A DNA stretch of 64,000 bases, from NCBI RefSeq assembly GCF_004792295.1, contig NZ_SRRY01000001.1, positions 878,501-942,500 on the forward strand, in the 5' to 3' direction. Shown here one piece after another: positions 14,779 to 30,390 of this stretch (position 1 is the stretch's first letter; each line of letters begins with the position of its first letter). The notes under the pieces were generated by a model. It saw only the letters and a list, made by a program, of their open reading frames with translations. It was not told where the DNA came from and did not search any database. Origin of the DNA: Pseudoalteromonas sp. MEBiC 03607. GTDB taxonomy: Bacteria > Pseudomonadota > Gammaproteobacteria > Enterobacterales > Alteromonadaceae. The translations under genes and the position numbers were made by a program.

Positions 14779-17460
14779 GTGAAGTTTTTTAGACTTGTAA
14801 TCGCTCTTTTTATCTCGCTTATATTCATAACTGAGGCTCATTCAGTCACTCCAACTAAGCAACAAATAGAACAATTTAAAAAGCTACCTAAGTCGCAACA
14901 AGAAGCGCTCGCTAAGAAATATGGCTTAGATCTTAGTATGTTGGATTCAACAGGTCAAAACGCGAATCAGTTAGAAAATGAAAATACTGATACTGTTTTG
15001 TCTCGAGGGATGTTTGACGATAATAAAGATAACAAAGAAATTACAGAAGAAGATAAGTTTAAACCTGAAGAAGATAAGCTTAAACCATTCGGTTATGAAC
15101 TTTTTTCTGGTGAACCAACCACGTTTGCACCGTCAGAAAGTGCTCTAGTGCCTGATTCTTATATTGTTGGTCCAGGTGATACTTTCTCAGTTAGCTTATT
15201 TGGTAAAGAATCTTCTACAGAAGAAGTTGTAATAGACCGTGAAGGCCGCTTAACAATTAATAAACTTAAGCCAGTCACAGTTAGTGGTATGCAATACAGT
15301 GATGTAGTTGAACTTATTAAAGCTAAAGTTAAACAAGAGGTTATTGGTACTGAAGCCTTTGTGTCAATGGGCAAAACACGCTCAATCCGTATTATGGTTT
15401 TAGGTGAGGCATACAAGCCTGGTGCTTATACTGTTCCTTCATTAGCTTCAATTACCCATGCGTTATTCGTGAGTGGTGGTGTATCAGAGATTGGTTCTCT
15501 TCGAAATATACAACTAAAGCGTGCAGGAAAGACAGTAACAACTCTCGACTTATATAACCTGTTGATAAAAGGTGATAGTAGTAATGATGTCATTTTAAAG
15601 CCGGGTGATGTTGTGTTTATTCCACCTGTTGGTATGCAGGTGAGCGTTAAAGGTGAGGTACGTAGACCTGCCATTTTTGAGCTTAAAAAAGATGAGTCTA
15701 GTCAAGATTTAATAGCTATGGCTGGCGGATTTAATGCCGCTGCATATCCGCAGAAAACAGTTGTAGAGCGCTATACCGGTAATAGCTCGAGAACAGTTCT
15801 GCAACTTAACTTATCTAATAAAAATGCGTATAAACCAAATGATGGTGATGTAATTCTTGTTCCATCTTCTAGCCAAGAGCTTGATAACGCTGTGACCCTG
15901 CTTGGTGCTGTTGCTCATCCTGGCAATTATGCTTGGCATGAAGGAAAAAAAGTGAGCCAGCTATTTGGTTCACTTAAAACTGATTTATTGCCAATTGCTG
16001 ATTATGACTATTCTTTAATTGTCCGAGAAATTAATCTTCGTGGTGATATAGAGGTACATCAATTTTCACTTCTAAAAGCGATAAGTGGAGAAGAAGACCT
16101 AGAATTAAAACCTCGAGATATTGTGGTTGTATTTAGCCGCTTCCAATCTTTAGAAAATGAAGAAAATGCGCTTACTGGTATGGCGTTAACTCAAGAGCAG
16201 TTAAAGCAACAAGAAAAAATCAAGCTTTGGGATGAGTACGAAGAGCGCAAATTCTATGAGTTTATTGATCTTGGTACAGCCTTGGATAGAGAGCTTGCAG
16301 AGTCTTTAGTTGAAGAAACTAAGCAGGAAGTGCTATCAATAACTGAGCTGTTGACTAACAAAGAAGAGTTGAAAGAAGATGAATACGCAGTATTTAGCCG
16401 TAAAAAGCTATTAAAGCCTATCCTTTCTAAGTTGAATCAGCAAGCTACAAAAGATGGTGGACTTCAAATTATTGGCGTGCGTGGCGAAGTATTCTATGAA
16501 GGAGTTTATCCTCGCCCTGTAAATGCTAATGTGGGTGATGCAATTATTGCGGCTGGCGGCTTAAAAGAGTCAGCGTATCTTCAAAATGCAGAAATTACGC
16601 GCTATAAAGAAAATTCTGTACTTGAGCACATCGGTGTTGATTTATCCAGCTTAAAAGATAAAAGCTCAATCAGTAAATATGAGTTAAAGAGCAAAGACAC
16701 GATCAATATCTATCCAATTCCGAATTGGCAGCAAGATCGAAAAATCAACATTATTGGTGAGGTAAAGTTCCCTGGTGTGTACAGTATAGCTAAAGGTGAA
16801 ACGCTATCTAGTGTTATTGAGCGTGCAGGGGGCTTCACTGAGTTTTCATTCCCTGAAGGTGCTATTTTTACTCGAGAATCTATTCGTTTACAACAGCAGC
16901 AGCAATTAAATAAAATATCTGAAGACTTGAGAAGAGATATTGCCTCTAAGAGTTTTAACAGCTCAATAACTGATGCTTCTTTATCATATCAAGATATGAA
17001 TAGCTTACTTACAGATCTTGCTAAAGTTAAAGCCGTTGGCCGATTAGTTATTGACTTACCTTCGATCGTTAATGGAAAGCGCCGTTTAGAAGTAGAAGAT
17101 AGTGATGTTTTATATGTTCCTTCTAAGCGTAATAGCATTAATGTTGTCGGTGAGGTTAATTTCTCAGGTTCTCATCTATTTCAAGATGAGCTATCACTTG
17201 ATGATTATTTAAATCGAAGTGGTGGTCTTAAACAGCGCGCTGATGAAGAGCGTATTTATATCATCAAAGCAAGCGGTTTAATTGAAGTTCCTGATGCAGG
17301 CTCTTGGTTTGCAGTTAACAATGACTTCCAGCTGTCACCAGGCGACACAATTGTTGTTCCACTCGATACGGATTACATTGATAATTTGACCCTATGGAGT
17401 TCTGCAACACAAATTATGTATCAAATGGGTGTAGCTGTTGCAGCAATAAGCTCACTGTAA
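14779..17460 (+). CDS. Large multi-SLBB polysaccharide export protein (OtnA/WbfF type)
   Basis: This is a predicted periplasmic or outer-membrane component of polysaccharide export. It has 893 residues, more than twice the length of a normal Wza (about 370-380). A signal peptide (about residues 1-22) precedes a charged N-terminal region and a polysaccharide-export domain beginning YIVGPGDTFSVSLFG near residue 128. About six SLBB-like modules follow, each marked by a VxGEVxxPG-like start (for example VLGEAYKPGAY, VKGEVRRPAIF, IIGEVKFPGVY). The size and design resemble the OtnA/WbfF proteins of Vibrio O-antigen/capsule loci. The GTG start has agaaggga upstream. It is followed 14 bp later by a nitroreductase-like gene. 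Partnership with the Wzz at 36036 is an inference. Confidence 0.8.
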   Translation: MKFFRLVIALFISLIFITEAHSVTPTKQQIEQFKKLPKSQQEALAKKYGLDLSMLDSTGQNANQLENENTDTVLSRGMFDDNKDNKEITEEDKFKPEEDKLKPFGYELFSGEPTTFAPSESALVPDSYIVGPGDTFSVSLFGKESSTEEVVIDREGRLTINKLKPVTVSGMQYSDVVELIKAKVKQEVIGTEAFVSMGKTRSIRIMVLGEAYKPGAYTVPSLASITHALFVSGGVSEIGSLRNIQLKRAGKTVTTLDLYNLLIKGDSSNDVILKPGDVVFIPPVGMQVSVKGEVRRPAIFELKKDESSQDLIAMAGGFNAAAYPQKTVVERYTGNSSRTVLQLNLSNKNAYKPNDGDVILVPSSSQELDNAVTLLGAVAHPGNYAWHEGKKVSQLFGSLKTDLLPIADYDYSLIVREINLRGDIEVHQFSLLKAISGEEDLELKPRDIVVVFSRFQSLENEENALTGMALTQEQLKQQEKIKLWDEYEERKFYEFIDLGTALDRELAESLVEETKQEVLSITELLTNKEELKEDEYAVFSRKKLLKPILSKLNQQATKDGGLQIIGVRGEVFYEGVYPRPVNANVGDAIIAAGGLKESAYLQNAEITRYKENSVLEHIGVDLSSLKDKSSISKYELKSKDTINIYPIPNWQQDRKINIIGEVKFPGVYSIAKGETLSSVIERAGGFTEFSFPEGAIFTRESIRLQQQQQLNKISEDLRRDIASKSFNSSITDASLSYQDMNSLLTDLAKVKAVGRLVIDLPSIVNGKRRLEVEDSDVLYVPSKRNSINVVGEVNFSGSHLFQDELSLDDYLNRSGGLKQRADEERIYIIKASGLIEVPDAGSWFAVNNDFQLSPGDTIVVPLDTDYIDNLTLWSSATQIMYQMGVAVAAISSL

Positions 17461-17474
17461 TTAGTTAGAATTTG

Positions 17475-18509
17475 ATGAAAACAACGGTAATCAAATTATT
17501 AAAAAAGGTAATAGAGCAACTTCAAGCTGCTGTATTACCTTTATGTAGTAAATCAGCTATTTTATCTGGACTTTACTTTACCTTTTTCTCACGGGACTTT
17601 TTCTATGAGCATCAAGCCATACTGAAAGCGCGTTTAGCGTATAAAAAACAGCAAGGCATGCATGGGAAATCAAGTGCATTATTGCGTAGAAATATTCATC
17701 GCTTAGAGAAAGGGTTAATAATGCAACCTAGACGAAATGTTTTTGCCCTTGAATATATAACTGAAACAGTAAGTGCTTATCGTGTCGCATTAAATGCCCA
17801 AGAGGTAGAGCTATCGGAGCTACAGTGGGCAAATGATGTTTTAACTGAATACTTTTCTGTTGTGGATAAAAATCACCCTGTGATCGATGAGAGTTATTTA
17901 CTATTCAGCCAGCTACAAACTTTAGAGTTAACCTCAAAAAAGCCATTTTTTTATCGGCAAAAAGCTCCTCAAAAAGTTAGCTATGAGGATTTTTTAACAT
18001 TAACAAAATTTCGTACGTCGGTCCGGTGGTTTGAAGCACAAAATGTCGAAATAGAAAAAATAGAAAAAGCATTAGCAGCAGCACTTCAAGCACCGAGTGC
18101 GTGCAATAGGCAGCCTTTCGAATTTTACTCTATTACAGAACAACCTTTGCTTAGCAAATTGGCTAATTTACCTGGCGGCACGGCAGGGTTCGCAGACAAT
18201 ATCCCGCATTTAATTGCTGTAGTTGGAGATTTATCTTATTACCCACTTTCACGCGACCGTCATGTTATATATATCGATAGTTCGCTTGCATCAATGCAGT
18301 TTATGTTAGCACTTGAAACTTTAGGGTTAAGCAGTTGTCCTATTAACTGGCCTGAATTAATTAATCAAGATAAGGCTGTCGCTAGTTTACTCAACTTACC
18401 ACAATATAAGCGTGTTGTTATGTTCATTGCTGTAGGTTACCCATCCAATTCAGGAATGATACCTTACTCTGATAAAAAACAAGCTAAAGACATTCTAAAA
18501 CATGTTTAA
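17475..18509 (+). CDS. Nitroreductase-family protein with N-terminal extension
   Basis: The C-terminal half (from about residue 165) has the FMN-dependent nitroreductase fold. FRTSVRWFE is the FMN-phosphate-binding start, APSACNRQPFEFY is the APSxxNxQP-type segment, and GLSSCPINWPE follows. The first 160 residues are an extension without a recognised domain. Members of this long type are seen in polysaccharide gene clusters, but their substrate is not known to me. The gene lies 14 bp after the SLBB export gene and is probably co-transcribed with it. The ATG at 17475 is preferred over the TTG one codon earlier. The function in this locus is unknown. Confidence 0.65.
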   Translation: MKTTVIKLLKKVIEQLQAAVLPLCSKSAILSGLYFTFFSRDFFYEHQAILKARLAYKKQQGMHGKSSALLRRNIHRLEKGLIMQPRRNVFALEYITETVSAYRVALNAQEVELSELQWANDVLTEYFSVVDKNHPVIDESYLLFSQLQTLELTSKKPFFYRQKAPQKVSYEDFLTLTKFRTSVRWFEAQNVEIEKIEKALAAALQAPSACNRQPFEFYSITEQPLLSKLANLPGGTAGFADNIPHLIAVVGDLSYYPLSRDRHVIYIDSSLASMQFMLALETLGLSSCPINWPELINQDKAVASLLNLPQYKRVVMFIAVGYPSNSGMIPYSDKKQAKDILKHV

Positions 18510-18584: not shown

Positions 18585-18980
18585 ATGAAAAAAAATAAAG
18601 GTTTCAGTTTAATGGAACTAATGATAGTTCTTATCATACTTGGGCTGTTAGGTTCACTAGTCGCTCCTAAATTATTTTCAAAGGTAAGTTCATCTAAAGT
18701 TAAAACCGCGATTGCTCAAATGCAAATGTTTGAAACAGCAATTGATACATACCGTCTAGATATGGGGACTGTACCTCCATCTCTTCAAGCATTACGAAAA
18801 AGTGACTCAGCAAATTGGGATGGACCATATTTGCCAAAAGACATTCCTCTAGACCCGTGGGGTAAAGAGTACATCTATAAGGTGCCTGGTGAAAATGGCT
18901 CTCCTTACAGCATTATGAGTTATGGACTTGACGGCCAACCTGGTGGTGAAGGTGAAAACGAGGATGTAGTTCATAAATGA
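18585..18980 (+). CDS. gspG: Type II secretion major pseudopilin GspG
   Basis: GspG is the main subunit of the periplasmic pseudopilus that pushes substrates through the secretin. The 131-residue precursor has the prepilin peptidase site MKKNKG|FSLMEL, with glutamate at +5 of the mature protein and a long hydrophobic helix. The C-terminal part (IPLDPWGKEYIY and LDGQPGGEGENEDV) carries the calcium-binding features of GspG. A good ribosome site (aaggag) and a 75-bp gap suggest that the secretion operon may have its own promoter here. It overlaps gspE by four bases. Having G first is unusual for a gsp operon. Confidence 0.93.
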   Translation: MKKNKGFSLMELMIVLIILGLLGSLVAPKLFSKVSSSKVKTAIAQMQMFETAIDTYRLDMGTVPPSLQALRKSDSANWDGPYLPKDIPLDPWGKEYIYKVPGENGSPYSIMSYGLDGQPGGEGENEDVVHK

Positions 18981-20635
18981 TGGAGCTAAGCCAATTACTT
19001 GCTGAACAATTTAAAATATCTGCGGCTGATATAGATAAAGCTAAGTCATATCAAAGTCGCTATGATGGCAGGCTAGAACAAATTTTAGTTAATATGGGCT
19101 GCTTGACAGAAGAGGACTTAGCACCACTTTACAGCAAGTTATTAGGCTACCCTCTTTTTAATGCTGAAGATTATCCAAATTGGCAACTACCTGAAGACAT
19201 CAATGTCGAAATACTTCGAGCGTTAAAAGAGCTTGATTGTGTTTTACTCGAGGCCAATGAGGTATGGACTATAGCATGTAAAGATCCATTATCTTTGTCA
19301 CTTGCACAATTTATACAGCAACATAATGTTGATGTTATTATTTTGGTTGCAACAGAAGCTCAGCTTCAAACTTTCTTTTATGAAATTCAAAGTTCATCAG
19401 AGAATAGTGTTGAAGAAGATGAGTTAACAGGTGACGAGGAGGCAAGATTAAGAGAGTTAGCTTCAGAAGCTCCTACGGTTAACCTTTTAAACTCACTGAT
19501 AACTAAAGCATTAGCTAGAGGTGCTTCTGATATGCATCTTGAGCCGCATCAAGGGCGATTTCGCGTTAGATATCGAATTGATGGGGTCTTACATGAGGTT
19601 GATAAGTTAGCTCCAAAAATGCAGCTTCCTATCACAACTCGACTTAAAATACTTTCTGGAATGGACATTGCTGAAAAGCGCCGACCTCAGGATGGAAAAA
19701 TAGAACTACGCATAGCCAATCAAGAGCTTGATATTCGTGTTTCTGCTTTGCCATTGAACGATGGTGAAAGTATTGTTTTGCGTTTCCTGCTTAAAGACTC
19801 GATTCGTTATGATATGTCTGTTCTTGGGCTTTCCAATGATACACAAAGTCTAATTCAGCAAGACTTACGTAAAACAACAGGTGTAATCTTGTTAACTGGG
19901 CCTACAGGCTCAGGTAAAACAACAACACTTTATACATTCTTGAATGAGCTTAATCGTCCAGACGTAAAAATCATTACATTAGAAGACCCAGTTGAATATC
20001 AGTTAGAGGGGGTTAACCAAGTACAAGTTAATAACGATATCGGTTTTAACTTTGCCGCAGGTTTGCGCTCTATAGTACGACAAGATCCAGATATTATCAT
20101 GGTGGGTGAGATACGTGATGCAGAAACAGCACGTATCGCTTTGCAGTCGGCACTGACTGGGCATTTAGTATTCAGTACTGTGCATACAAATGATGCTGCA
20201 AGTGCTTATACGCGTTTACTTGACTTAGGTGTCGAAGAATTTTTACTAAATGCGGCTCTAGTTTCTGTTGTCGCGCAACGTTTGGCTAGACGTTTATGCC
20301 AACACTGTGCTGAGCCCTTAGAAGATACTAGCGAATTGCTTTCTCAGTATCCATTAGAGCAGGTAGCTAAAAACGCAGCAATTAGTGAACTAAATATTAA
20401 ACAGGCTGTAGGCTGTGAGCATTGCAATCATACTGGGTTCAAAGGCCGAATCGCTATAAATGAATATCTTCGTTGTGATGATGAAATTAAGCAATTACCT
20501 AAAAACGATCAATTTATATCTCGTGCGCAAGCCCATAATGCACAGCTAAAGCGACGTAATTTAATGCAAGATGGTTTGTATAAAGTAATTACTGGCGTAA
20601 CCACTATTGATGAAGTTCTACGAGTAGCTGGCTAA
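18977..20635 (+). CDS. gspE: Type II secretion ATPase GspE
   Basis: GspE is the cytoplasmic hexameric ATPase that powers the system, anchored by GspL. The 552-residue protein has an N-terminal GspE/MshE-type domain and Walker A GPTGSGKT at residues 308-315. It also has an aspartate box (LEDPVEYQLEGV), a Walker B region (PDIIMVGEIRDAETA) and a histidine box (ALTGHLVFSTVHTNDA). A tetracysteine zinc motif (CQHC and CEHC) typical of GspE lies near residues 438-480. The start overlaps the gspG stop as ATGA, which indicates translational coupling. Confidence 0.94.
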   Translation: MMELSQLLAEQFKISAADIDKAKSYQSRYDGRLEQILVNMGCLTEEDLAPLYSKLLGYPLFNAEDYPNWQLPEDINVEILRALKELDCVLLEANEVWTIACKDPLSLSLAQFIQQHNVDVIILVATEAQLQTFFYEIQSSSENSVEEDELTGDEEARLRELASEAPTVNLLNSLITKALARGASDMHLEPHQGRFRVRYRIDGVLHEVDKLAPKMQLPITTRLKILSGMDIAEKRRPQDGKIELRIANQELDIRVSALPLNDGESIVLRFLLKDSIRYDMSVLGLSNDTQSLIQQDLRKTTGVILLTGPTGSGKTTTLYTFLNELNRPDVKIITLEDPVEYQLEGVNQVQVNNDIGFNFAAGLRSIVRQDPDIIMVGEIRDAETARIALQSALTGHLVFSTVHTNDAASAYTRLLDLGVEEFLLNAALVSVVAQRLARRLCQHCAEPLEDTSELLSQYPLEQVAKNAAISELNIKQAVGCEHCNHTGFKGRIAINEYLRCDDEIKQLPKNDQFISRAQAHNAQLKRRNLMQDGLYKVITGVTTIDEVLRVAG

Positions 20636-21834
20636 TGGAGTTTGAATATAAAGCGATTGATAATCAAGGCACGCGTCATCAAGGTGTTGTTAGTGCAACT
20701 AACCAAGCAGATGCACAAAAAAAGCTCTTAACAGAAGGGCTCAATGCATTATCGATTAAGCCCATTGATAATACAAAAAGTATTAGCAGTCTGTTCTCGC
20801 AAAAAGTAACCCTTGATCAACTCGAGTTTTTTACGAGTGAGCTAGCTCTACTTTTAGAAAGTGGAATTCGCGTAGATCGCGGAATTGATATTATTAAAAA
20901 AGCAAATGGTCATCCTGCGTTGACACGTTTGTTAAGCCAAATTTCTGCATCTTTAAAAAAAGGTGCTTCGTTAAGCGAAGCGTTCTCACAGCATGAGCAG
21001 CTGTTTGGTCCTTTGTATATTAGCCTACTTAAAATAGGTGAAACGTCAGGAAATCTACCAGAAGTTTTACAGCGCTTATCAAACGACTTAAAGTTTCAAA
21101 AAGATTTGCGTTCTCAAATAAGCACCGCATTAACTTATCCTAGCGTTATATTCTTTGTTTGTATCATGGCGGTTTATTTTGTGCTTACATTCATTGTCCC
21201 CAAAATGTCAGGTATTTTTACTGACCTTAGCCAAGCTCCCTGGTACACACAAATGATTATTAATGTCAGTAATTTTTTTGTGGATTATCAAGTGATTATT
21301 ATCAGTGGGATTGTTGCGGCAATTACAGGTTTGACATATGGCTTAAAGCAACCTGAAGTGAAAAACTGGTTTTATGTCAAAGTATCGCATTTACCAGGTA
21401 TCGGAAGTGTAATTTTAACGGCTGAGCGTATCCGTTTTTCCCAATCAATGGCAATGATGTTAGAAGCTGGTTTACAGCTAGATACAACACTGGAGTTGAC
21501 AGCCAACACTTTAAAACATCCAGAATTAAAACGAGATGCCAAACTAGCACTTAAGCAGCTAAAAACCGGTAAACAGTTGAGTCATGTGTTAGAAAAAACA
21601 CGCATATTTCCAGACTTTTTTCTATCGATAATCAAAGTTGGCGAAGAAACAGGGCGTTTACCAAGAGTTTTTTCAGAAGTTGCTCAGCGTAGTAAATCTG
21701 AATTGGAAGGAATTATTAAAAAGCTGACCACTATGCTAGAACCTATAATGCTTATTTTTATGGGTGGTTTTGTTGGTGGTATCGTAATCACTATGTTGAT
21801 GAGTATGGTATCAATTAATGATGTCCCCTTTTAA
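20635..21834 (+). CDS. gspF: Type II secretion inner-membrane platform protein GspF
   Basis: GspF is the polytopic platform protein of the inner membrane that links ATPase and pseudopilus. The 399-residue length is typical. There are two repeated T2SF domains (about 70-190 and 270-390), each with the family patterns LLESGIRVDRGIDII and MLEAGLQLDTTLELT, and three transmembrane segments (about 170-195, 220-240 and 370-390). Its start overlaps the gspE stop by one base (TAATG). The identification is secure. Confidence 0.94.
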   Translation: MEFEYKAIDNQGTRHQGVVSATNQADAQKKLLTEGLNALSIKPIDNTKSISSLFSQKVTLDQLEFFTSELALLLESGIRVDRGIDIIKKANGHPALTRLLSQISASLKKGASLSEAFSQHEQLFGPLYISLLKIGETSGNLPEVLQRLSNDLKFQKDLRSQISTALTYPSVIFFVCIMAVYFVLTFIVPKMSGIFTDLSQAPWYTQMIINVSNFFVDYQVIIISGIVAAITGLTYGLKQPEVKNWFYVKVSHLPGIGSVILTAERIRFSQSMAMMLEAGLQLDTTLELTANTLKHPELKRDAKLALKQLKTGKQLSHVLEKTRIFPDFFLSIIKVGEETGRLPRVFSEVAQRSKSELEGIIKKLTTMLEPIMLIFMGGFVGGIVITMLMSMVSINDVPF

Positions 21835-22219
21835 AATCAAAGGATTCTCTCTCATTGAGCTAATGGTCGTTATGGCAATAATGGCTGTTTTAATGGGGTT
21901 GACGGGCGGTGTTATTGTTAAGAATGTTGCTCAACAGACTCGTTTAGTTGAGCTTGAAAAAACCCAAAATTACTTCAAAATGCTGAGTTATAAGGCATAT
22001 TATGGCGGCTATCCTATAAAGGTTGATCTTGATGGCAGCATGTTCAAAATCAGTATTGCCGATCAAGTCACGAATCTTGAATTTGAAGAACTTGAGTTTG
22101 AAAAGTCAAGTTATACCATAAACACAAAATCAGCCATTATGCCGAACTCCTTCACTGTAAAGTGGAATGAAACTAGTCGTGAATTTCCAATAAATACAAT
22201 GTTCAAGCCTTATGAATAA
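21818..22219 (+). CDS. gspH: Type II secretion minor pseudopilin GspH
   Basis: This minor pseudopilin belongs to the tip complex. The precursor has a short basic leader, cleavage at KIKG|FSLIEL, glutamate at +5 and a hydrophobic helix (MVVMAIMAVLMGLTGGVIV), then a small beta-rich domain. At 133 residues it is shorter than many GspH proteins (about 160-190). Assignment as H rests on its position between F and I and on the N-terminal pattern. It overlaps both gspF (17 bp) and gspI (8 bp). Confidence 0.8.
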   Translation: MMSPFKIKGFSLIELMVVMAIMAVLMGLTGGVIVKNVAQQTRLVELEKTQNYFKMLSYKAYYGGYPIKVDLDGSMFKISIADQVTNLEFEELEFEKSSYTINTKSAIMPNSFTVKWNETSREFPINTMFKPYE

Positions 22220-22619
22220 AAATAAAGGGTTTACGCTGCTTGAAGTATTAATCGCGGCGATTATTTTGTTTACAGCATTAGCTTTAGCGAGTGAAATTTT
22301 TAAAAGTGCTACATTATCAACTGATATTGCAGTTAAAAATGCCAAGTACTTCCAAATCACCCCTTCAGCTATCACTGCTATAAAATTCGATCTGCGAAGT
22401 AAAGTAAAAAATCGCGACATACCAGAAGCAGATGGTGAATTGGAGTTATTTGGTATTTATTACTCTTGGCAAGCAAATCGAGAAACTTTTAATAGCCCGC
22501 CGACAGATGAGTTATCTGATTTTTCAGAGCGAAACCGTTTCTCAATTTATAATGTAGATATACTTGCTAAAAGTGCAGGCCGAGAAAGAGAGTTCTCTTT
22601 TAAGGTTGCAACATGGTGA
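22212..22619 (+). CDS. gspI: Type II secretion minor pseudopilin GspI
   Basis: This is a 135-residue pseudopilin with cleavage at MNKNKG|FTLLEV, glutamate at +5 and a hydrophobic helix. The FTLLEVLIAAIILFTALA segment is characteristic of GspI/XcpV, which starts assembly of the pseudopilus tip with J and K. The globular part is small and diverged. It overlaps gspH and gspJ by several bases, so the genes are translationally coupled. The name relies on the N-terminus and gene order. Confidence 0.82.
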   Translation: MNKNKGFTLLEVLIAAIILFTALALASEIFKSATLSTDIAVKNAKYFQITPSAITAIKFDLRSKVKNRDIPEADGELELFGIYYSWQANRETFNSPPTDELSDFSERNRFSIYNVDILAKSAGREREFSFKVATW

Positions 22620-23317
22620 GAATACAAAGTAAACAAACTGGCTTTACATTAATCGAGCTTTTGTTAGCTACAAGTGTATTGATGCTAGTGTTATATGCAG
22701 GATATTTTGGCTATGGTTTGTACACTCAAAAATGGCAGACAAGAACCAACTACTTTTGGCAGCAAAGCCAACAAGCACTTGCATTCGATGCAATTACTCG
22801 AGTCTTTGAATCAGCAAGCACATACGTTGTTGAATCGGATAAAAACGAGCCTGCACAATATTTTTCAGGTGACAAAGAAAGAGTCATATTTATAAGCACT
22901 TCACCTTTATTTAACCATGAAGCTTCTGTCGTAGAATTTAAGATACTACAAAATGATGGAGTTTATTCACTCGTATATAATGAGGCTTCAATGAGAAATA
23001 ACTTACTGTTGAAACAATCTGATGTTATTGAGTGGGAACATCAAGTTACGTTGCTTGAGAACTTAAAAAGAATCTCTTTTGTTTATTATGGGTGGTCTGG
23101 CTTAGATGAGGTTTCTAGAAACTACAAAGAAGATAATGTAAATAGTCAAACTAAGCCACAGCTTTATGCCAAACATGTTATGGAAGATATTCGTATATTA
23201 CCAATTAGCTTAACACTCGAAATAGAAGGGCATGAGGGAGAGCGAAGTCATTTTCCTGTAGCTCTACCAGAAGAAGCTTTCTCTGTTCTGATCGATTACT
23301 TAAGGTTAGAAATATAA
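22613..23317 (+). CDS. gspJ: Type II secretion minor pseudopilin GspJ
   Basis: This is a 234-residue minor pseudopilin with leader MVRIQSKQTG, cleavage before FTLIEL, glutamate at +5 and a hydrophobic helix. The size is right for GspJ, which is larger than H and I. The globular region includes the QQALAFDAITRVF helix, where GspJ proteins usually have a conserved Q-LxxDl-R pattern. Its start overlaps the gspI stop, and the gspK ATG overlaps its own stop. Confidence 0.84.
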   Translation: MVRIQSKQTGFTLIELLLATSVLMLVLYAGYFGYGLYTQKWQTRTNYFWQQSQQALAFDAITRVFESASTYVVESDKNEPAQYFSGDKERVIFISTSPLFNHEASVVEFKILQNDGVYSLVYNEASMRNNLLLKQSDVIEWEHQVTLLENLKRISFVYYGWSGLDEVSRNYKEDNVNSQTKPQLYAKHVMEDIRILPISLTLEIEGHEGERSHFPVALPEEAFSVLIDYLRLEI

Positions 23318-24216
23318 TGCAGTTCCAAAGAGGTATTGCTCTGGTGCAGGTACTGATAATTACTCTTGTCCTAAGTACCCTTGGGTTATATATAATAAAG
23401 TCCTCGAGAGAACAGGTCGCCACAACGTTCGAAATTAAGGAAGCGTTGTCTTTGCGTATAAAAATTGAAAATACCGAGGCTCGAGTTATTAATGCGCTAT
23501 TAAGTCAGTTTCGGATTCAAAACGTAACAAATGAATCTGACATCGCCAAAAACTGGAATTTTTATAATAAACCTTTTGAAGTAGAGGGGGTTTCAGTCCA
23601 ACTTCAAGACTTAAACGGCTTAATTAGCTTGAATGTTGCAGATTTACAACTACTTAAAGATGTTCTGATGAAGTTAAATGTTTCGCCATCTGAGAGTGAT
23701 ATATTTATTGATTCGCTAGCTGATTGGAAAGATGAAAATGACCTTAAAAGATTGAATGGAGCTGAAAGGGCATATTATGAATCGCAAGATATGCCAGGTC
23801 CTAGGAATGGTTACTTGCAATCATTGGCTGAAGTTAGTCACATTAGAAATAGCGATATATTAACCCCTCAGCAATGGAGTGAGTATTTTACCGTTGAACA
23901 TATCACAGGCTTTAACCCGGCAAACGCTCCGGAGCCAATTTTGCAGGCATTTATTAAAAATGATACAACGGTAGCTAATTTAGTTGGACTGCGCGATAAT
24001 GCAGGATTAAATGGTAATACCTTTTACAGGGAATCAGGCATTGAGCCTGACGAGTTTATTAACTTTCTCCCTGGCGATAGTGTAAAAGTTACTCTAACAG
24101 CAAAAAAATCTAATCAACGAGTGTCAAAAAGCTTTACGGCGAAAATAAGAACGCGTTCTTTAACTCGCCCTATTGTTATTACTAATGTTATCTGGAATCA
24201 AAATGAAGTTGAGTGA
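23317..24216 (+). CDS. gspK: Type II secretion minor pseudopilin GspK
   Basis: This is the largest minor pseudopilin (299 residues), placed at the very tip. The precursor MQFQRG|IALVQVLII lacks the +5 glutamate found in the other pseudopilins, a known hallmark of GspK. DLNGLISLNVADL and DSLADWKDENDLKRLNGAE match the GspK family, including the region that binds calcium in E. coli GspK. AYYESQDMPGPRNGYLQSLAE and NPANAPEPILQAF are further family segments. It overlaps gspL by 14 bp. Confidence 0.92.
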   Translation: MQFQRGIALVQVLIITLVLSTLGLYIIKSSREQVATTFEIKEALSLRIKIENTEARVINALLSQFRIQNVTNESDIAKNWNFYNKPFEVEGVSVQLQDLNGLISLNVADLQLLKDVLMKLNVSPSESDIFIDSLADWKDENDLKRLNGAERAYYESQDMPGPRNGYLQSLAEVSHIRNSDILTPQQWSEYFTVEHITGFNPANAPEPILQAFIKNDTTVANLVGLRDNAGLNGNTFYRESGIEPDEFINFLPGDSVKVTLTAKKSNQRVSKSFTAKIRTRSLTRPIVITNVIWNQNEVE

Positions 24217-25309
24217 GTTACTTCAAAACGTTAAAAATAAAAAATGGTTGCTCAATAGCATTGCTTACTACCACGAAAATTTATTTTTACTGGCAGCAAG
24301 TGAATTCAAGGTAACTGACAAAAGTAAAAAAGTAATCATAGTCTCTCGCCGTAATTATAACGAAAAATGGCAGACTTACCCTTCAGTAAGCTTAAAAGAG
24401 TTGAAAGACATTTTAAAGCTTCAAAAAGAGACTTCGAATAGCCTTATAATTGAAAGCTTTTCTAAAAATGAACAGCAAGAGGGCTACGATGTAAAGACGA
24501 TTACTTTTTCAGAAAAGCTTACCGATGAGTTTTCTAAGCATATACTCATCCCCGAGACTGAATTAATTAATCACTACTATAAAGATCAAAAGGTTGTTAT
24601 CGAAGCACAGACGCCTGCCGGTAATCTATTTTATAGTAAAGTGGAAGGTAAAACGAAAAGTGCATACAAACAAGGTTTAGTATCATCATTAGAATCGTTC
24701 TGCTTAAGTATTGGCGTACATAGTGATGTAGCTAAGGTATCGCTTACACAGGACGATTATGCATCTTTGTTAAATGAAGCTATTTTGAATACACCTTTCT
24801 TAAGCCTTTATAAAACTGCTGCTTTTGATTTTAAATCGAGCGTAGATTACAAGCTCTTACATAGTCTTTATTATGGGCCGTTAATTTCTGCAGGGATATT
24901 CATTGCAGGAGTAAATGCCTTTTATATGTATAAAGCTAACTCTCTAGAAACAACACTATTAAGCTATCAAGGCGGGGTCTCTGAGCTTCTGGAGCAAAAG
25001 CAAAAAATTGATCTAGATAAACTATATGTTGAACAGGTATTACAAGAGTTTGAACTCTACCCTAATGTTCATAGCCATTGGGATATTGCATATAAAGCGA
25101 TTTCAGAAGGAATGGACATACAAGAGTTTTCTGGTTCTAAATCGAATGTTACACTCAGGGGTTTTGCAGATTCAGCTTCAAGTATTCTTGCGGTCATAAG
25201 TGAGTTGCCAATGGTTGAAAGTGCCCAATTTAGTGGTCCCGTCAGGAAATCAGGCAAGAGAGATTACTTTATCATGGAGCTAAAGGTAGTGGGTGAAAAT
25301 GAAAAGTAA
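24203..25309 (+). CDS. gspL: Type II secretion inner-membrane protein GspL
   Basis: GspL anchors the ATPase GspE and binds GspM. The 368-residue protein has a cytoplasmic domain (about 1-220), one transmembrane segment (PLISAGIFIAGVNAFYMY, near residues 227-244), a periplasmic coiled segment and a small ferredoxin-like domain. The order fits GspL, although the cytoplasmic domain is diverged and I cannot align it in detail. The ATG at 24203 with ctgga upstream gives MKLSELLQ. Upstream in-frame TTG and ATG codons are less likely. It overlaps gspK and gspM. Confidence 0.78.
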   Translation: MKLSELLQNVKNKKWLLNSIAYYHENLFLLAASEFKVTDKSKKVIIVSRRNYNEKWQTYPSVSLKELKDILKLQKETSNSLIIESFSKNEQQEGYDVKTITFSEKLTDEFSKHILIPETELINHYYKDQKVVIEAQTPAGNLFYSKVEGKTKSAYKQGLVSSLESFCLSIGVHSDVAKVSLTQDDYASLLNEAILNTPFLSLYKTAAFDFKSSVDYKLLHSLYYGPLISAGIFIAGVNAFYMYKANSLETTLLSYQGGVSELLEQKQKIDLDKLYVEQVLQEFELYPNVHSHWDIAYKAISEGMDIQEFSGSKSNVTLRGFADSASSILAVISELPMVESAQFSGPVRKSGKRDYFIMELKVVGENEK

Positions 25310-25862
25310 CCTTTTAAAATATAAAAATTATCTTTTTGTCTTGTCGGCTTTGATTGTTGCAAATTTTGTATTGGATCCTATGTGGAAAAATATTGAAACG
25401 TTGCAGCAAAAAGTTTATTTGGATGAATCCAAAGTAGTTAAGGTTGAAAATTTAATAGCTAATAAAAAGCAAATAGAAAAACAAAGTGGTTTATTATCTA
25501 TTAATAAGTTGAAGTTACAGCCGTATCTATTTACTGCAAGTACAGAGTCCGAGTTCAAATTAACAGCTCAAGGAAAAATAGAAAAACTGTTGCAAACCAA
25601 TAATTGCAATGTTGAGCGAATAGGTTGGGCGGGTAAAAGTAATATTGAACAACAATTAGTACGCTGGACATTAGAAGCCAGATTTAGAGGTAATCCGGAA
25701 TGCGTATTGAATGTATCTAGACAATTAGAAAGTTTAGAGCCAATGGTTAAAATTGCTGATTATTCCTATGCAGGTAAAGAAGTATCAGGTGATAAACAAA
25801 ATTATATGGTTGTCGCTCTTACTTTGATAATGTGGCAAAACGCAAATGAGGTTGCATTATGA
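25299..25862 (+). CDS. gspM: Type II secretion inner-membrane protein GspM (diverged)
   Basis: This is a 187-residue bitopic protein with a short cytoplasmic N-terminus, one transmembrane segment (LFVLSALIVANFVLDPMW), a coiled region and a periplasmic domain that may be ferredoxin-like. This architecture and the position after gspL fit GspM, the partner of GspL. Sequence signals are weak, so the assignment is mainly by context and topology. Two starts are possible: GTG at 25293 and ATG at 25299. The second is chosen. It overlaps gspL and the following gspC-like gene by a few bases. Confidence 0.7.
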   Translation: MKSNLLKYKNYLFVLSALIVANFVLDPMWKNIETLQQKVYLDESKVVKVENLIANKKQIEKQSGLLSINKLKLQPYLFTASTESEFKLTAQGKIEKLLQTNNCNVERIGWAGKSNIEQQLVRWTLEARFRGNPECVLNVSRQLESLEPMVKIADYSYAGKEVSGDKQNYMVVALTLIMWQNANEVAL

Positions 25863-26326
25863 AGTGGCTCATAGCGTTTTTATCTGCTTTAACAGTTGTT
25901 GTTCTTTTAAATTCATTAGATATGCCTGAGGATGTGGCTTCTGGGAAAGGTAATGAACTAAAAGAAGTTGGTAAAATTAATTTACGTAATAAACAACCTG
26001 AATTAGAAGTAGAAAAACAGTGGTTAAAAAAAGAAATTGAAAAACCTAAAGTAGAAGAAAAGGTAAGTGCACCACAGGAGAAAAAAACAGCATTTCCTGT
26101 TTTAGAAATAGAAGGGCAGAAGTACCAACTACTGGGTATATTTAAGCAAAAAATGAAACCTTTTGTGTTGTTGAAAAATACTGAAAATAACTTGGTTAAA
26201 TTACAAGTTGGAGATGAGCTTACTAAAGGTATTTTCTTAGAGAAAGTTACCGCATCAGCGATAATCATCAAAAAAGGTAGCGACACAATTAAATTTAAAC
26301 TTTTTGAACGTAGTGACAATGGCTAA
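25859..26326 (+). CDS. gspC: GspC-like type II secretion protein lacking a PDZ domain
   Basis: GspC links the inner-membrane platform to the secretin. This 155-residue protein has a transmembrane segment (LIAFLSALTVVVLLNSL), a lysine- and glutamate-rich linker (about 30-80), and a homology-region domain: YQLLGIFKQKMKPFVLL followed by LQVGDELTKGIFLEKV, which matches the GspC HR pattern. It ends straight after the HR domain, with no PDZ or coiled-coil module. It is therefore much shorter than the usual 270-300 residues. Its place before gspD supports the call. A PilP-like role is the alternative. Confidence 0.75.
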   Translation: MKWLIAFLSALTVVVLLNSLDMPEDVASGKGNELKEVGKINLRNKQPELEVEKQWLKKEIEKPKVEEKVSAPQEKKTAFPVLEIEGQKYQLLGIFKQKMKPFVLLKNTENNLVKLQVGDELTKGIFLEKVTASAIIIKKGSDTIKFKLFERSDNG

Positions 26327-28400
26327 TAAACTTTACAATTTAACCCTTTCAACCTGCTTGGTGTTAGGGGCGACAAGCTGTGCATCGCTTGTAGATCCAA
26401 ATTCAAGTGTTGAAACAGAAAAAGTAACTGTTTCAGAATCTTACCTTGATTTACCGCAGGGTGAACAACGTGAAGAGGCTGTTGAATTAGAGCAAGCAGA
26501 GCAGGTAAACGGTAAAACTGAGCGATTGAATCGACTATCAGATTCAAGACAGGCAACAACATTAGAAATCGATTTATCAAAGTCTTTTTCTCAAAACCCT
26601 CAGTTTCAAGTGTCTGTGAATGCATTGCCACTTAATGACTTTATTCATTATGTATTCGGAGAATTGCTTGATACATCCTATATTTTAGAAGCGAGTGTAA
26701 AAAGCAACACTACACCTGTAACTTTAGATTTAAAAGAACAGTTAAGCGCTAAAAAATTATTTTTACTAGTTCAGCAAATTTTGTCACAGAACAATGTCAG
26801 TATTGTTAAAAATGACGGGATTTTTTATCTACATACTAACAACGCAAATACTAGAATAGATAAGGCATTTGGGTTTGGTCGTAATGAAGAAGCGGTACCA
26901 AATGTATCAGGTCAAATAGTTCAACTTGTACCAATTCAGTATGGTATGCAACCTGGTCTGCGTAATATTATGAGCCAACTTGTCGATACCAATAATACCT
27001 ATGATGCGTCGCAAGCATTATTAACGATTGAAGGCAAAAGAGAACAAGTACTCAGAGCGCTTTCGTTAGTCTCTCTTTTAGATAGCCCTGCAATTTATAA
27101 TAAAGCAACAGCTCTTATTGGATTTGATTATTTGAGCTCGGAAACTTTCATCAAAAAAGTTACCGAAATACTCAAAGAAGAAGGAATTACAGTTGCTGAT
27201 GGTGGCCCATATGCAGCGAGTGTGAAGTTTGTTCCTTTAGAGCACTTGGGTAAAGTGGTGGTTTTTGCTAGCAGTGATGAAATTATTGACCGCGTAGCGT
27301 TTTGGCGCAAAGAGCTTGATAAACCTGCTGCTGGTGCTGAACAAAGCTTTTACATCTATCATCCTAAATATGCGCGCGCCTCGGATTTAGGGGCAAGTTT
27401 AGCTCCTCTTGTTGGTGGTAGCCTTTCTGGTGGAAGTAATCGTTCAAAACAAACTACAAATGAACGAACTTCTTCAGCGAGTACGCGCAATACTGATTCT
27501 CAATCACAAAGTGGTAATGAAGTACAGACAGTTGAAGGCGACAACATGCGCCTAGTGGTTGATGAAAGAGCAAATGCACTGATTTTTTACTCTACAGGTC
27601 AATATTATCAAGAGCTGCAACCTATTATTAGACAGCTTGATATCATGCCTAAACAGGTCATGATGGAAGTCGTTATTGCTGAAGTTAAATTAACGGGTAG
27701 CTTCTCTAAAGGGGTTCAGTATGCAATTCAAAATGGACCATCTACAGGACGTAATGAAAATATTAGTTTCAATACTGAAGGAAAAGGCGGGTTTAGCTAC
27801 TCAGTAGTTGGGCTTCCGGGTAATATAAGTCTTAACTTGTCTCAAACAGATGGATTAGTAAATGTATTGTCTCGCCCTACATTATTGGTGCGTGATGGCG
27901 TTTCAGCCAATATCAATGTAGGTGACGATATACCTACCATTGGAAGTACCACTGATGATCCACTGGATGGAACTGGAAGACAAACAACTACAATTGAGTA
28001 TCGCCAAACAGGTGTTAATTTAACAGTAACGCCGACTATTAATGCCCAAGGTACTGTTATAATGACTATTGATCAGAGTATTTCAAATATTTCTGATACA
28101 GATGGCTCAAGCAGCACCCCAGCATTTTTTGAGCGTACATTAAAAACGGAAGTAGTAGCCGGTAATGGGCAGACAGTGATGCTAGGTGGTTTGATCAGCG
28201 AAACTAAATCTAACGGGGCTTCATCTGTGCCATTTTTTGGTACTATTCCAGTGTTAGGGCACCTATTTAGAACGGATAGTAGCTCAGCTGATAAAACAGA
28301 ATTAGTGATTTTAGTTACGCCAAAAATAGTACAAAACACCGAAGACTGGCAGCGTGTTAAAGAAAGCTTTATTAAAGGTCTAGAAAATCTTAAGTTTTAA
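26319..28400 (+). CDS. gspD: Type II secretion outer-membrane secretin GspD (probable lipoprotein)
   Basis: GspD forms the outer-membrane channel of the system. The 693-residue protein has an N0 domain (FQVSVNALPLNDFIHYVFGELL), N1-N3 domains with a serine/threonine-rich insert near residues 370-405, and the secretin core (VMMEVVIAEVKLTGSFSKG). The C-terminal signature VPFFGTIPVLGHLFR is near residue 640. The ATG at 26319 gives a signal peptide ending LGATSC, a fair lipobox with cysteine 21. The secretin may therefore be lipidated and reach the outer membrane without a pilotin, like Pseudomonas HxcQ. It overlaps gspC. No gspN or gspO gene follows. Confidence 0.92.
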   Translation: MANKLYNLTLSTCLVLGATSCASLVDPNSSVETEKVTVSESYLDLPQGEQREEAVELEQAEQVNGKTERLNRLSDSRQATTLEIDLSKSFSQNPQFQVSVNALPLNDFIHYVFGELLDTSYILEASVKSNTTPVTLDLKEQLSAKKLFLLVQQILSQNNVSIVKNDGIFYLHTNNANTRIDKAFGFGRNEEAVPNVSGQIVQLVPIQYGMQPGLRNIMSQLVDTNNTYDASQALLTIEGKREQVLRALSLVSLLDSPAIYNKATALIGFDYLSSETFIKKVTEILKEEGITVADGGPYAASVKFVPLEHLGKVVVFASSDEIIDRVAFWRKELDKPAAGAEQSFYIYHPKYARASDLGASLAPLVGGSLSGGSNRSKQTTNERTSSASTRNTDSQSQSGNEVQTVEGDNMRLVVDERANALIFYSTGQYYQELQPIIRQLDIMPKQVMMEVVIAEVKLTGSFSKGVQYAIQNGPSTGRNENISFNTEGKGGFSYSVVGLPGNISLNLSQTDGLVNVLSRPTLLVRDGVSANINVGDDIPTIGSTTDDPLDGTGRQTTTIEYRQTGVNLTVTPTINAQGTVIMTIDQSISNISDTDGSSSTPAFFERTLKTEVVAGNGQTVMLGGLISETKSNGASSVPFFGTIPVLGHLFRTDSSSADKTELVILVTPKIVQNTEDWQRVKESFIKGLENLKF

Positions 28401-28744
28401 TGTTTTTTTTAACAAATAATTACTTGAAAAATGACCAGTTAAACGATAATTTAGCTATGTTCAGTGAAAGTTAACTTACGTATTCAAAAAAGCGGTAATA
28501 AAACTATAACTGTACGTGCTTTAACGGGTTTACTTAAAACTTCTTAAGTAACTTTTGTCATAAAAATGTTGGTATTGCATGTTACGATACTCAGAAGCTT
28601 AAAAACTGAGTCATCAGCATGCAAACGAACAAATTAAATTAAGAGGGTTGGCTAATAATAAATGCCTATTTTAGTTTCTATATTGTACTAAAATGTGTGA
28701 AAATACTTTACTTGTTCATAAAGTGTGCATGTAAGGTTAATTAC
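28401..28744. other. AT-rich non-coding region upstream of the S-layer gene
   Basis: The 474-bp gap between gspD and the predicted S-layer gene has no convincing coding frame. It contains two modest inverted repeats: ACTCAG/CTGAGT (28589-28594 and 28606-28611), and TTTTAGT/ACTAAAA (28669-28675 and 28687-28693). They may be regulatory sites or weak transcription stops after gspD. No small RNA could be shown. Confidence 0.5.
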
Positions 28745-28773
28745 TTGACAAGTTTATTGTTAACCCTTAAATT
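28745..28773 (+). promoter_or_regulatory. Strong promoter of the predicted S-layer gene
   Basis: A perfect TTGACA (28745-28750) is followed after 17 bp by TAAATT (28768-28773). This predicts a leader of roughly 95 nt before the ATG at 28875. The strong box fits a highly expressed protein. Confidence 0.7.
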
Positions 28774-28816
28774 TAGCTTGATCTGGCAAAACTCCAGCCA
28801 GAACAATAAAAAATCT

Positions 28817-28858
28817 TGGTGTATTGCCTTCATTAACAATACATCAGTTTCATGAAAC
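28817..28858 (+). promoter_or_regulatory. Two hairpins in the leader just before the S-layer ribosome site
   Basis: The leader can form the stem TGGTGTATTG/CAATACATCA (one G-U pair, 10-nt loop), directly followed by the palindrome GTTTCATGAAAC (28847-28858). The ribosome site aggaga starts two bases later. Such leader structures often stabilise abundant mRNAs; that role is inferred here. Confidence 0.5.
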
Positions 28859-28874
28859 TAGGAGAATGGAAATA

Positions 28875-30338
28875 ATGAAACTATTCAAAAAAGCGCTTTT
28901 AGCTACTGCTGTAGTAGGTGCAATGGGTGCACAAGCGGCAACTATCTCAAGTGACGCTAAAAAATTATCTGCAGAAGGTGTTGCATTAAAAGTAGCAGCA
29001 ACTGCTGATACTCTAACTTTCGACATCGTTGTTGATAAAGACCACCCGTCTTCGTCAGTAATCACTTTAAACTTCGATTCAAACGTTGATCTTTCAAGCA
29101 CAGCTGGTGTTATCACTGGTGGCGCTGTAACTCAAGGTGTTGCATCAGGTACAGCTTATGCTGGCGATGTAGGTTTTGACTACGGTACTGGTAGCTTCAC
29201 ATTTGACGACGTTAAAGTTACAAATGGCGACGCAACTAAAGGCGAAACAGATTCAATCTCTTTCAAAGTAAACCTTGGTAACCCACTTACAGCTAACTCA
29301 GCGTTCCGCGTTGTTTTAGGTAACCACAACTACGGTGGTACTAACGGTGTTGCTAAAGTTCTAGTTAAAGGTGCTTCTACTCTTAGCTACGTTTCTAACA
29401 AAGCTGACAAATCAGTTATCGAAACTGGTACTGGTGTGATTGCTTCTGAAGTAACTCAGTTTGGTTTCAAAGTTGATACTCAACTTGACGGCCTAATCAT
29501 GCGTGACGACCTAACAAGCTTCGTAGGTACAAACGGTTCTGCAGTTAAAACTGATGCTCTTAAGTACACTTTCACAAATGATGAGTCTCTAGGTCTAGCT
29601 CTTCAAAACGTTAACGCGAAAATTAACTTCGCTGGTAACTTCAAAGGTGTAACTACTACTGTTTCTGGTACTACTTTAGGTGCTGCTTCTACTGCTGCAG
29701 CAGGTAACACAGCTGGTACAGCAGGTACTCTATCTCTACCTACTGCTACTGGTGGTACTACACCTATCGCTGTTTTAGATTCATATGTAATGACTACTCC
29801 AGCAACTCCAGTTAAAGCAACTTACGTTAACACTGTTGATTTCACAAACGGTTCTACAAGCACTGTTCAAATCCCAGTAACTGGTGACGTTGAAGCTTCT
29901 GTTACAGTAACTAGCGCTTCTAACGCAACTGTTGGTACTGACGGTTACTCTTTATACTCTAAAGTAGCTGCTGGTGAGTGGGCTGTTGACGCAACTATCA
30001 TCAACGTTCCTTACGTTCCAGTAAATGCTCCTAACACTGATACTTTCATCCACTTCGCTAACGAAACGGATAAAGAAGTAGATGTTATCGTTACTGCTAT
30101 CGATAACAACGGTAAAGAGTACGGCCCAATGAACCTTGGTGCTAAACTAGCTGCTAACACTGTAACTAAGATCTCTGAGCCAGCAATGGATACTCTATTC
30201 GGTCTTAAAGGTGCTACTACTAAACTAAGCGTTACTTTCAACATCGACGCTGATAAAGGCGACGTAAACGCTTACGCAGTTAGCCAAAACGACAAAGGTC
30301 GTACAGAAGTTTCTACTTCACAACAACGTGGTAACTAA
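28875..30338 (+). CDS. Predicted S-layer protein (Slr4-like), secreted, highly expressed
   Basis: This is a 487-residue secreted protein predicted to be an abundant surface or S-layer subunit. The signal peptide MKLFKKALLATAVVGAMGAQA is cut near residue 21. The mature part is rich in T, V, A, G, S, D and N, has no cysteine and very little tryptophan, and looks almost wholly beta-stranded. These features match S-layer proteins and fit the Slr4 family of P. tunicata. I recognise the type but could not align it. Codon use is strongly biased to GCT, GTT, ACT and GGT, unlike the neighbours, which indicates very high expression. The ATG at 28875 has aggaga upstream; an earlier in-frame start would hide the signal peptide. 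A strong promoter, structured leader and perfect terminator mark a single-gene unit. The adjacent type II system is its likely exporter. Confidence 0.62.
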   Translation: MKLFKKALLATAVVGAMGAQAATISSDAKKLSAEGVALKVAATADTLTFDIVVDKDHPSSSVITLNFDSNVDLSSTAGVITGGAVTQGVASGTAYAGDVGFDYGTGSFTFDDVKVTNGDATKGETDSISFKVNLGNPLTANSAFRVVLGNHNYGGTNGVAKVLVKGASTLSYVSNKADKSVIETGTGVIASEVTQFGFKVDTQLDGLIMRDDLTSFVGTNGSAVKTDALKYTFTNDESLGLALQNVNAKINFAGNFKGVTTTVSGTTLGAASTAAAGNTAGTAGTLSLPTATGGTTPIAVLDSYVMTTPATPVKATYVNTVDFTNGSTSTVQIPVTGDVEASVTVTSASNATVGTDGYSLYSKVAAGEWAVDATIINVPYVPVNAPNTDTFIHFANETDKEVDVIVTAIDNNGKEYGPMNLGAKLAANTVTKISEPAMDTLFGLKGATTKLSVTFNIDADKGDVNAYAVSQNDKGRTEVSTSQQRGN

Positions 30339-30362
30339 TATTAGTTAGTTTAACTACTTTGT

Positions 30363-30390
30363 AAAAGCCCGGCTTAAGCCGGGCTTTTTT
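30363..30390 (+). terminator. Terminator of the predicted S-layer gene
   Basis: A perfect palindromic stem AAGCCCGGCTT/AAGCCGGGCTT followed by six T lies 25 bp after the stop codon. It is GC-rich and among the strongest terminators in the window. Confidence 0.95.

Follow-up and report, generated by a model that had tools for sequence, protein, structure and literature searches.

Does a type II secretion system (T2SS) whose genes run straight into a gene for a surface-layer (S-layer) protein exist to export that protein? The question is raised by a 64,000-nucleotide stretch of the genome of Pseudoalteromonas sp. MEBiC 03607 (the window; the genome comprises 4.56 Mb in two contigs), in which eleven genes in the order gspG-E-F-H-I-J-K-L-M, gspC-like and gspD (positions 18585-28400) have the S-layer gene slr4 downstream (28875-30338). 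Judging from the sequence, we consider it very probable (roughly 0.86) that this operon specifies a full second T2SS whose dedicated role is to export the Slr4 encoded next to it. The preliminary description of this DNA had proposed a dedicated S-layer export module, and the proposal is supported by the conserved linkage of slr4 and the operon in related genomes, the match of the protein to the Slr4 family and the presence of a separate canonical T2SS. The idea is not new, since it has appeared in print for this protein family and this genus: the Slr4 paper describes a T2SS cluster immediately upstream of slr4, alike in other species, as suggesting dedicated secretion (PMC7821379), and the AnnoView paper also states it (PMC11094555). 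What is added here is the size of the linkage test, a lineage with a lipoprotein secretin and a short GspC, assignments for most of the divergent subunits and a probable identification of the vesicle protein P49 as an Slr4.

Slr4 was searched for in a sample of 394 genomes of the order. In a class-wide sample of 276 genomes the search was confined to the secretin. Secretin scoring took in the best two candidates per genome in the order and the best four in the class. Slr4 was found in 18 of the 394 order genomes, the window's own included (20 matches), and gsp genes lay beside slr4 in all 17 non-self loci (one per other Slr4 genome). Seen from the side of the secretion system, a secretin scoring at least 460 bits occurred in 17 order genomes, again counting the window's own, every one of them slr4-positive; the 18th Slr4 genome (G219) carries a more distant T2SS (227 bits) beside slr4, and the next secretins (379, 358 and 309 bits in G316, G343 and G333) accompany not Slr4 but a protein of another family, family B, which stands directly after gspD in loci L043 and L045 and is present in L044 as a fragment ahead of gspG, at the edge of the locus. 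Among the 276 class genomes, no secretin exceeded 242 bits except the window's own. A scan of named genomes for gspD yielded 92 relatives, of which the best 80 were kept; all counts out of 80 refer to these, and as the loci were chosen by gspD, not by slr4, they carry no bias towards linkage but one towards window-like secretins. The gene slr4 was present in 74 of the 80 (as short frames in L117 and L123), in 73 of them after gspD and on the same strand. In three loci without it (L133, L140 and L147) the contig stops no more than 450 bases from gspD, and L146 is the second half of an Aliagarivorans operon split over two contigs, with slr4 in L145. L165 lacks slr4 and encodes a 639-residue protein that has a signal-peptide start by eye and matches the Slr4 C-terminal domain weakly (E 0.017); a Pfam scan of this protein gave no match.

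A constant neighbour could still be one cargo among several. The operon might serve several substrates, with Slr4 merely the most abundant and the others including the product of the frame at 30613-31197, which lies directly after slr4 in the window, encodes 194 residues with a signal-peptide-like start by eye and has a sub-cut-off PsbP-like match. As this small protein also adjoins the operon, the earlier statement that no other obvious secreted cargo lies beside it did not hold; a counterpart is kept in the same place in three of the 17 order loci (L031, L033 and L036). Related T2SS likewise adjoin other secreted proteins, and in Shewanella vesiculosa HM13, where P49 is encoded after a "non-canonical T2SS", green fluorescent protein fused to P49 is carried as well (PMC6971210). 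Set against this, slr4 alone is constantly beside the operon (74/80 named loci), the extra gene is confined to those three order loci, and P49 is given as the only major protein of the vesicles (PMC6971210). We regard a multipurpose exporter as unlikely.

The history of the two components points to a shared path. In 16 of the 18 Slr4 genomes (all but G050, whose slr4 frame is short, and G219, whose T2SS is a different one), Slr4 distances correlated with T2SS distances after gyrB was removed (partial Mantel r 0.54, reached by none of 9,999 permutations), and the correlation of Slr4 with gyrB distance alone was 0.11. The gyrB tree places G005, G202, G222 and G297 together, but in both the slr4 and the gspD tree this group is divided, G005 and G222 joining G071 and G141, and G202 and G297 joining G164. 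This pattern shows that the linked slr4 and T2SS genes moved together; it is silent on function.

A tree of GspE, GspF and GspD was built from 55 of 65 sets (eight were without GspE or GspF, and L042 and L061 were set aside). Three family-B systems group with the 17 Slr4 systems (ultrafast bootstrap 100), and this group falls into one clade (ultrafast bootstrap 100) with the systems of a further cargo family (family D), that of G219 and the VapA-type systems. The clade also takes in L051, L052 and L070, for which the cargo was not seen or is doubtful. Canonical systems, including the window genome's own, fall outside it. The operon is thus not a canonical general-secretion T2SS, as it lies outside the canonical group of the tree and its secretin carries a lipobox. 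By a rule of our own for calling this motif, 79 of the 80 named loci have it (the exception starts at a contig end) versus none of 10 canonical secretins, the start of one of these being probably misassigned. Secretins that carry a lipid and do without a pilotin, such as HxcQ, are called liposecretins. The GspC-like proteins span 143-233 residues (76/80 named loci) and appear, from their length, too short to hold a PDZ domain in addition; the window genome's canonical GspC is 313 residues long, with a PDZ match just under the cut-off. That canonical T2SS occupies a separate genomic site, and its C, D, L, M and N subunits are recognised by Pfam. The genome's third secretin is presumably the pilus secretin.

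Experimental evidence on such a system may already exist in HM13. Its cluster is described as running G2, E2, F2, three prepilin genes, K2, four hypothetical genes, D2, one further hypothetical gene and the gene of P49, the major vesicle protein, the whole series being flanked by Wza at the front and a nitroreductase gene at the back (PMC6971210). The window shares the order of the gsp and cargo genes, the Wza and nitroreductase genes nearby and the separate canonical T2SS; it differs in that P49 is described as vesicle cargo, not as an S-layer protein, and in that the authors report C, L, M, H, I and J as missing (PMC6971210), whereas in related loci the matching genes can be recognised as H, I, J, L and C-like, all of them divergent. 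Of the strains that the authors list as having such a cluster, four could be matched by strain or accession, namely UCD-KL12, S. waksmanii, JWIH and NBOF to our loci L168, L116, L104 and L113, and slr4 follows gspD in all four. The L168 protein has 472 residues compared with 473 for P49, scores 83.7 bits against Pfam Slr4, has a putative signal of 22 residues, the length determined for P49, and the mature start GTF, as in P49, and carries 11 of the 14 residues of the P49 C-terminal peptide. With up to four substitutions allowed, that peptide was found among 208 loci only in L168 and L207, in the same gene in both. Slr4 is diverse within the genus: the L168 protein shares 33% identity with the Slr4 of G727 (L202) and 30% with its L116 counterpart. 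On these sequence features P49 is probably an Slr4. As disruption of gspD2 abolished P49 from the vesicles (PMC6971210), the earlier remark that no exporter of Slr4-type proteins had been shown experimentally may have to yield: the HM13 experiment may be such a case, under the name P49. Disruption of putative surface-glycolipid genes in HM13 frees P49 from vesicles and cells (PMC7281004), which by analogy fits a glycan anchor. P49, Shewanella vesiculosa and S-layers are not joined in the literature searched, and subscription papers on P49, which lie outside it, may do so; the Slr4 paper (PMC7821379) does not contain vesiculosa, HM13 or P49, and the later HM13 papers searched contain neither Slr4 nor S-layer.

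The gspD2 experiment also bears on a different explanation of the linkage, in which Slr4 exits via the canonical T2SS or some other route and the operon accompanies its gene for another reason, for example by co-transfer in a surface-polysaccharide island. The window genome does hold a complete canonical T2SS, polysaccharide genes flank the operon, and some P49 still reaches the medium without GspD2, for which the authors suggest that the canonical T2SS may be responsible (PMC6971210). Yet gspD2 disruption shifts the location of P49 despite the canonical cluster of HM13 (PMC6971210), and the constant partner of the operon is slr4, next to gspD in 73 of the 80 named loci; a Wza-like/SLBB gene occurs in 14 and, within the 20 kb covered, a nitroreductase gene in 6 of the 17 order loci with slr4. 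An export route of this kind seems to us highly improbable.

Several points nevertheless weigh against a dedicated Slr4 exporter, or against P49 as its example. Locus L149 has this T2SS and no slr4 in the 2.4 kb available, a real absence. Linkage and co-transfer fall short of proving export, and for the window organism the claim is a reading of genes. In HM13, complementation of gspD2 was only partial, the P49 left in the mutant's medium counts here too, polar effects of the disruption are possible, and the assay was one of vesicle loading, not an image of an S-layer (PMC6971210). The identification of P49 as an Slr4 draws on one peptide, sizes and gene order, not on the full sequence; its N-terminal 22-residue peptide had no match at up to eight substitutions in the loci scanned, and the authors' BLAST returned one full-length relative, Ssed_3019 of S. 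sediminis, at 28% (PMC6971210).

If the operon is the dedicated exporter, the following route can be proposed: (i) Slr4 would be made in large amounts, as its codon bias suggests, cross the inner membrane by Sec, as its signal peptide predicts, and fold without disulfides; (ii) the GspG-K pseudopilus, powered by GspE, would push it through GspD, which probably needs no separate pilotin because it has a lipobox of its own; (iii) outside, Slr4 would assemble on a surface glycan whose synthesis or export may be encoded in part in the neighbourhood; and (iv) the canonical T2SS elsewhere in the genome would serve other substrates, with the prepilin peptidase probably common to both systems, since only one was found in the genome.

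We also lean, with reserve, towards a wider reading, in which these systems form a separate T2SS lineage specialised for S-layers, with a self-piloting lipoprotein secretin and a GspC reduced to its secretin-binding part. Such a lineage would pass between species along with its coat gene, and its cargo would fall into at least four groups of S-layer proteins or proteins like them: Slr4, VapA and two families related to Slr4 that have its C-terminal domain. P49 would be such a coat, so that Slr4 export would already have been shown unrecognised, and the shared C-terminal domain would be recognised by the machine or by the surface glycan. The C-terminus itself need not be free, since P49 with green fluorescent protein at that end was still delivered to vesicles in HM13 (PMC6971210). 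Our confidence in this joint reading was lowered because the N-terminal peptide of P49 is unmatched and its sole BLAST relative stands at 28%. That Slr4 has an exporter of its own has been proposed since 2020. Should P49 prove to be an Slr4, two separate bodies of literature would come together: the gspD of the exporter would already have been knocked out, in a tractable strain, and a plentiful vesicle protein of unknown function would turn out to form a coat. A T2SS family in which one substrate is constant, the secretin is a lipoprotein and GspC has no room for a PDZ domain would, moreover, offer a simple system for the question of how T2SS recognise their substrates.

Among the described systems, that of Pseudoalteromonas tunicata D2 is closely alike, with a T2SS cluster (G, E, F, K, D and others) directly upstream of slr4 and a Sec signal; by description no principal difference from the window was found, the passages on D2 contain no export experiment, and a surface lattice has been shown for the P. 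tunicata Slr4 protein (PMC7821379). The Aeromonas Sps/VapA cluster ends in K-L-M-Orf2-D followed by the S-layer gene and lies in a polysaccharide cluster, the Aeromonas S-layer genes being located inside the O-antigen cluster, but gspG follows gspF (PMC4413209, PMC4483657), and by profile VapA has no detectable homology to Slr4. VapA-type systems belong to the same T2SS clade as the window, as placed from VapA-type loci of other genera, and the VapA T2SS is described as essential for the Aeromonas salmonicida S-layer (cited in PMC10765051). In Paracidovorax citrulli, 12 gsp genes lie upstream of the S-layer gene of NpdA, in a genome that has two gsp clusters; that system is mainly betaproteobacterial, and it is likened here by the description of its locus, not by the NpdA sequence (PMC10765051).

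The cargo proteins were compared by profile. The profile of the Slr4 C-terminal domain matches all 120 proteins of family B (the best 120 of 172 matches) and 88 of the 93 of family D (E 1e-3, with E-values computed for those small sets). In profile comparison family D matches Slr4 along its length (98.5%) and family B mainly at the C-terminus (95.4%); compared directly, families B and D reach 14.5%. A protein with this domain occurs in 101 of 144 scanned loci (E 0.05), and the 43 without it include all 10 canonical, the VapA-type, two truncated family-D and the unknown-cargo loci. Family B proteins (for example L043:12280-14025 and L045:6424-8214) have about 600 residues, occur in Pseudoalteromonas, Shewanella and others beside a sister T2SS, are mostly named hypothetical and mostly have no Pfam domain; they are probable S-layer-like proteins. 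Two secreted proteins at T2SS loci outside the Slr4 group, L076:14747-16300 and L052:7120-8739, gave weak matches to the C-terminal domain (E 4.7e-4 and 0.012). Homology between Slr4 and VapA was left unproven, the whole-profile match spanning only the first 66 columns, signal region included, and the Slr4 C-terminal domain profile matched none of 105 VapA-family proteins (E 1e-3). Compared region by region, the two score highest on the diagonal, and weakly (N-terminal 0.6%, middle 49%, C-terminal 0.6%; secondary-structure term 0). Their AlphaFold models (mean pLDDT 80 and 85) show the same order of strands and helices in the last domain, which may serve as a lead only; a fold search of the PDB with both models gave generic Ig-like matches with a query-normalised TM of at most 0.24 among the 50 listed. 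A PDB sequence search with Slr4 found nothing, and the matches of a VapA-family protein (E at least 0.024) were taken as chance. Antisense open reading frames (ORFs) were considered as cargo in L049 and L052: the former was set aside, and the latter locus has a likelier gene on the opposite strand. Few candidates came from a heuristic search for secreted proteins low in cysteine next to T2SS whose cargo is unknown.

ORFs for all eleven gsp genes were found where they had been described (Table 1), and neighbouring genes overlap at all ten junctions. Secretin, ATPase, platform protein and major pseudopilin are encoded together, which marks the operon as a T2SS; the closest named gspD records, from two Pseudoalteromonas, are 65-66% identical in the best segment. 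Pfam cut-offs are passed by GspG, E, F and D, and the prepilin motif of H, I and J is also above its cut-off. GspG passes its NCBIfam equivalog cut-off, and GspE, GspF and GspD fall below theirs, as expected of a divergent system. Pfam and NCBIfam scans returned nothing above cut-off for the GspC-like protein, L and M; profiles built from relatives of these subunits were compared with those of canonical GspC, L, M and N, and each found its own canonical counterpart as the best of the four. The GspC-like profile aligns with columns 20-175 of the 298 of canonical GspC. The identity of gspM is mainly positional, because its profile probability is only 6.1%.

Table 1. Features of the slr4 locus, with positions in the window
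Feature	Position	Strand	Evidence or remark
SLBB/Wza-like polysaccharide export gene	14779..17460	+	Pfam SLBB, Poly_export; conserved neighbour
Nitroreductase-family gene	17472..18509	+	PF00881 90.7 bits; neighbour
gspG, major pseudopilin	18585..18980	+	TIGR01710 128.7 bits (cut-off 88.85)
gspE, secretion ATPase	18977..20635	+	PF00437 425.8 bits; TIGR02533 520 bits (below equivalog cut-off 630)
gspF, inner-membrane platform	20635..21834	+	PF00482 182 bits; TIGR02120 295 bits (below cut-off 424)
gspH-like minor pseudopilin	21818..22219	+	N_methyl 33.6 bits; operon position
gspI-like minor pseudopilin	22212..22619	+	N_methyl 29 bits; operon position
gspJ-like minor pseudopilin	22613..23317	+	N_methyl 26.2 bits; operon position
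gspK, minor pseudopilin	23317..24216	+	PF21687 (T2SSK_1st) 41.1 bits (cut-off 26.2)
gspL, divergent	24203..25309	+	PilN 17.7 bits (sub-cut-off); family profile vs canonical GspL 82.6%
gspM, divergent	25293..25862	+	mainly position; NF040576 (XpsM) 18.9 bits (sub-cut-off); profile vs canonical GspM 6.1%
Short GspC-like gene, 155 aa	25859..26326	+	profile vs canonical GspC 90.9%; place of Orf2 in the Aeromonas S-layer cluster
gspD, secretin with lipobox (Cys 21)	26319..28400	+	PF00263 158.9 bits; TIGR02517 321 bits (below cut-off 351)
Promoter-like site, TTGACA, 17 nt, TAAATT	28745..28773	+	before slr4; not enriched over shuffles
slr4, S-layer protein, 487 aa, 0 Cys	28875..30338	+	PF19526 (Slr4) 92 bits (cut-off 25), profile 9-367 of 370
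Terminator-like stem, 11 pairs	30363..30388	+	3' of slr4

The slr4 gene starts at the ATG at 28875, with AGGAG at 28860. Its product is a member of the Slr4 family and free of cysteine, both as first described. Its codon adaptation of 0.856 ranks first among the 58 ORFs of the window (median 0.60; gsp genes 0.53-0.67), the reference being 16 ORFs of the ribosomal-protein region, some of them non-ribosomal by length. That slr4 is monocistronic, as had been stated, is plausible. A terminator-like stem stands behind it, and promoter-like sites such as the one in front of it are no commoner here than in shuffled sequence (5 found versus a mean of 5.3).

The arrangement of slr4 varies in a few relatives. 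In L034 (G071) and in L035/L145 (G141, Aliagarivorans marinus), slr4 is found at the opposite flank of the operon, running divergently from gspG, and gspH is followed by gspD. Three to five tandem slr4-like frames follow gspD in L119, L122, L128 and L138 (Pseudidiomarina) and L141 (Ferrimonas), one of those in L119 being a 96-residue fragment; mixed or variable S-layers are possible there. In Rheinheimera texasensis (L038 and L123), slr4 was recognised only in a frame of 217-242 residues about 1 kb after gspD and is broken or very divergent. The sister group of the clade described above consists of non-canonical T2SS without a recognised S-layer protein (L055-L058, L060, L073, L075, L077, L078, L083 and L088), and in L055 and L056 very long proteins of 1471 and 1945 residues are encoded next to gspD.

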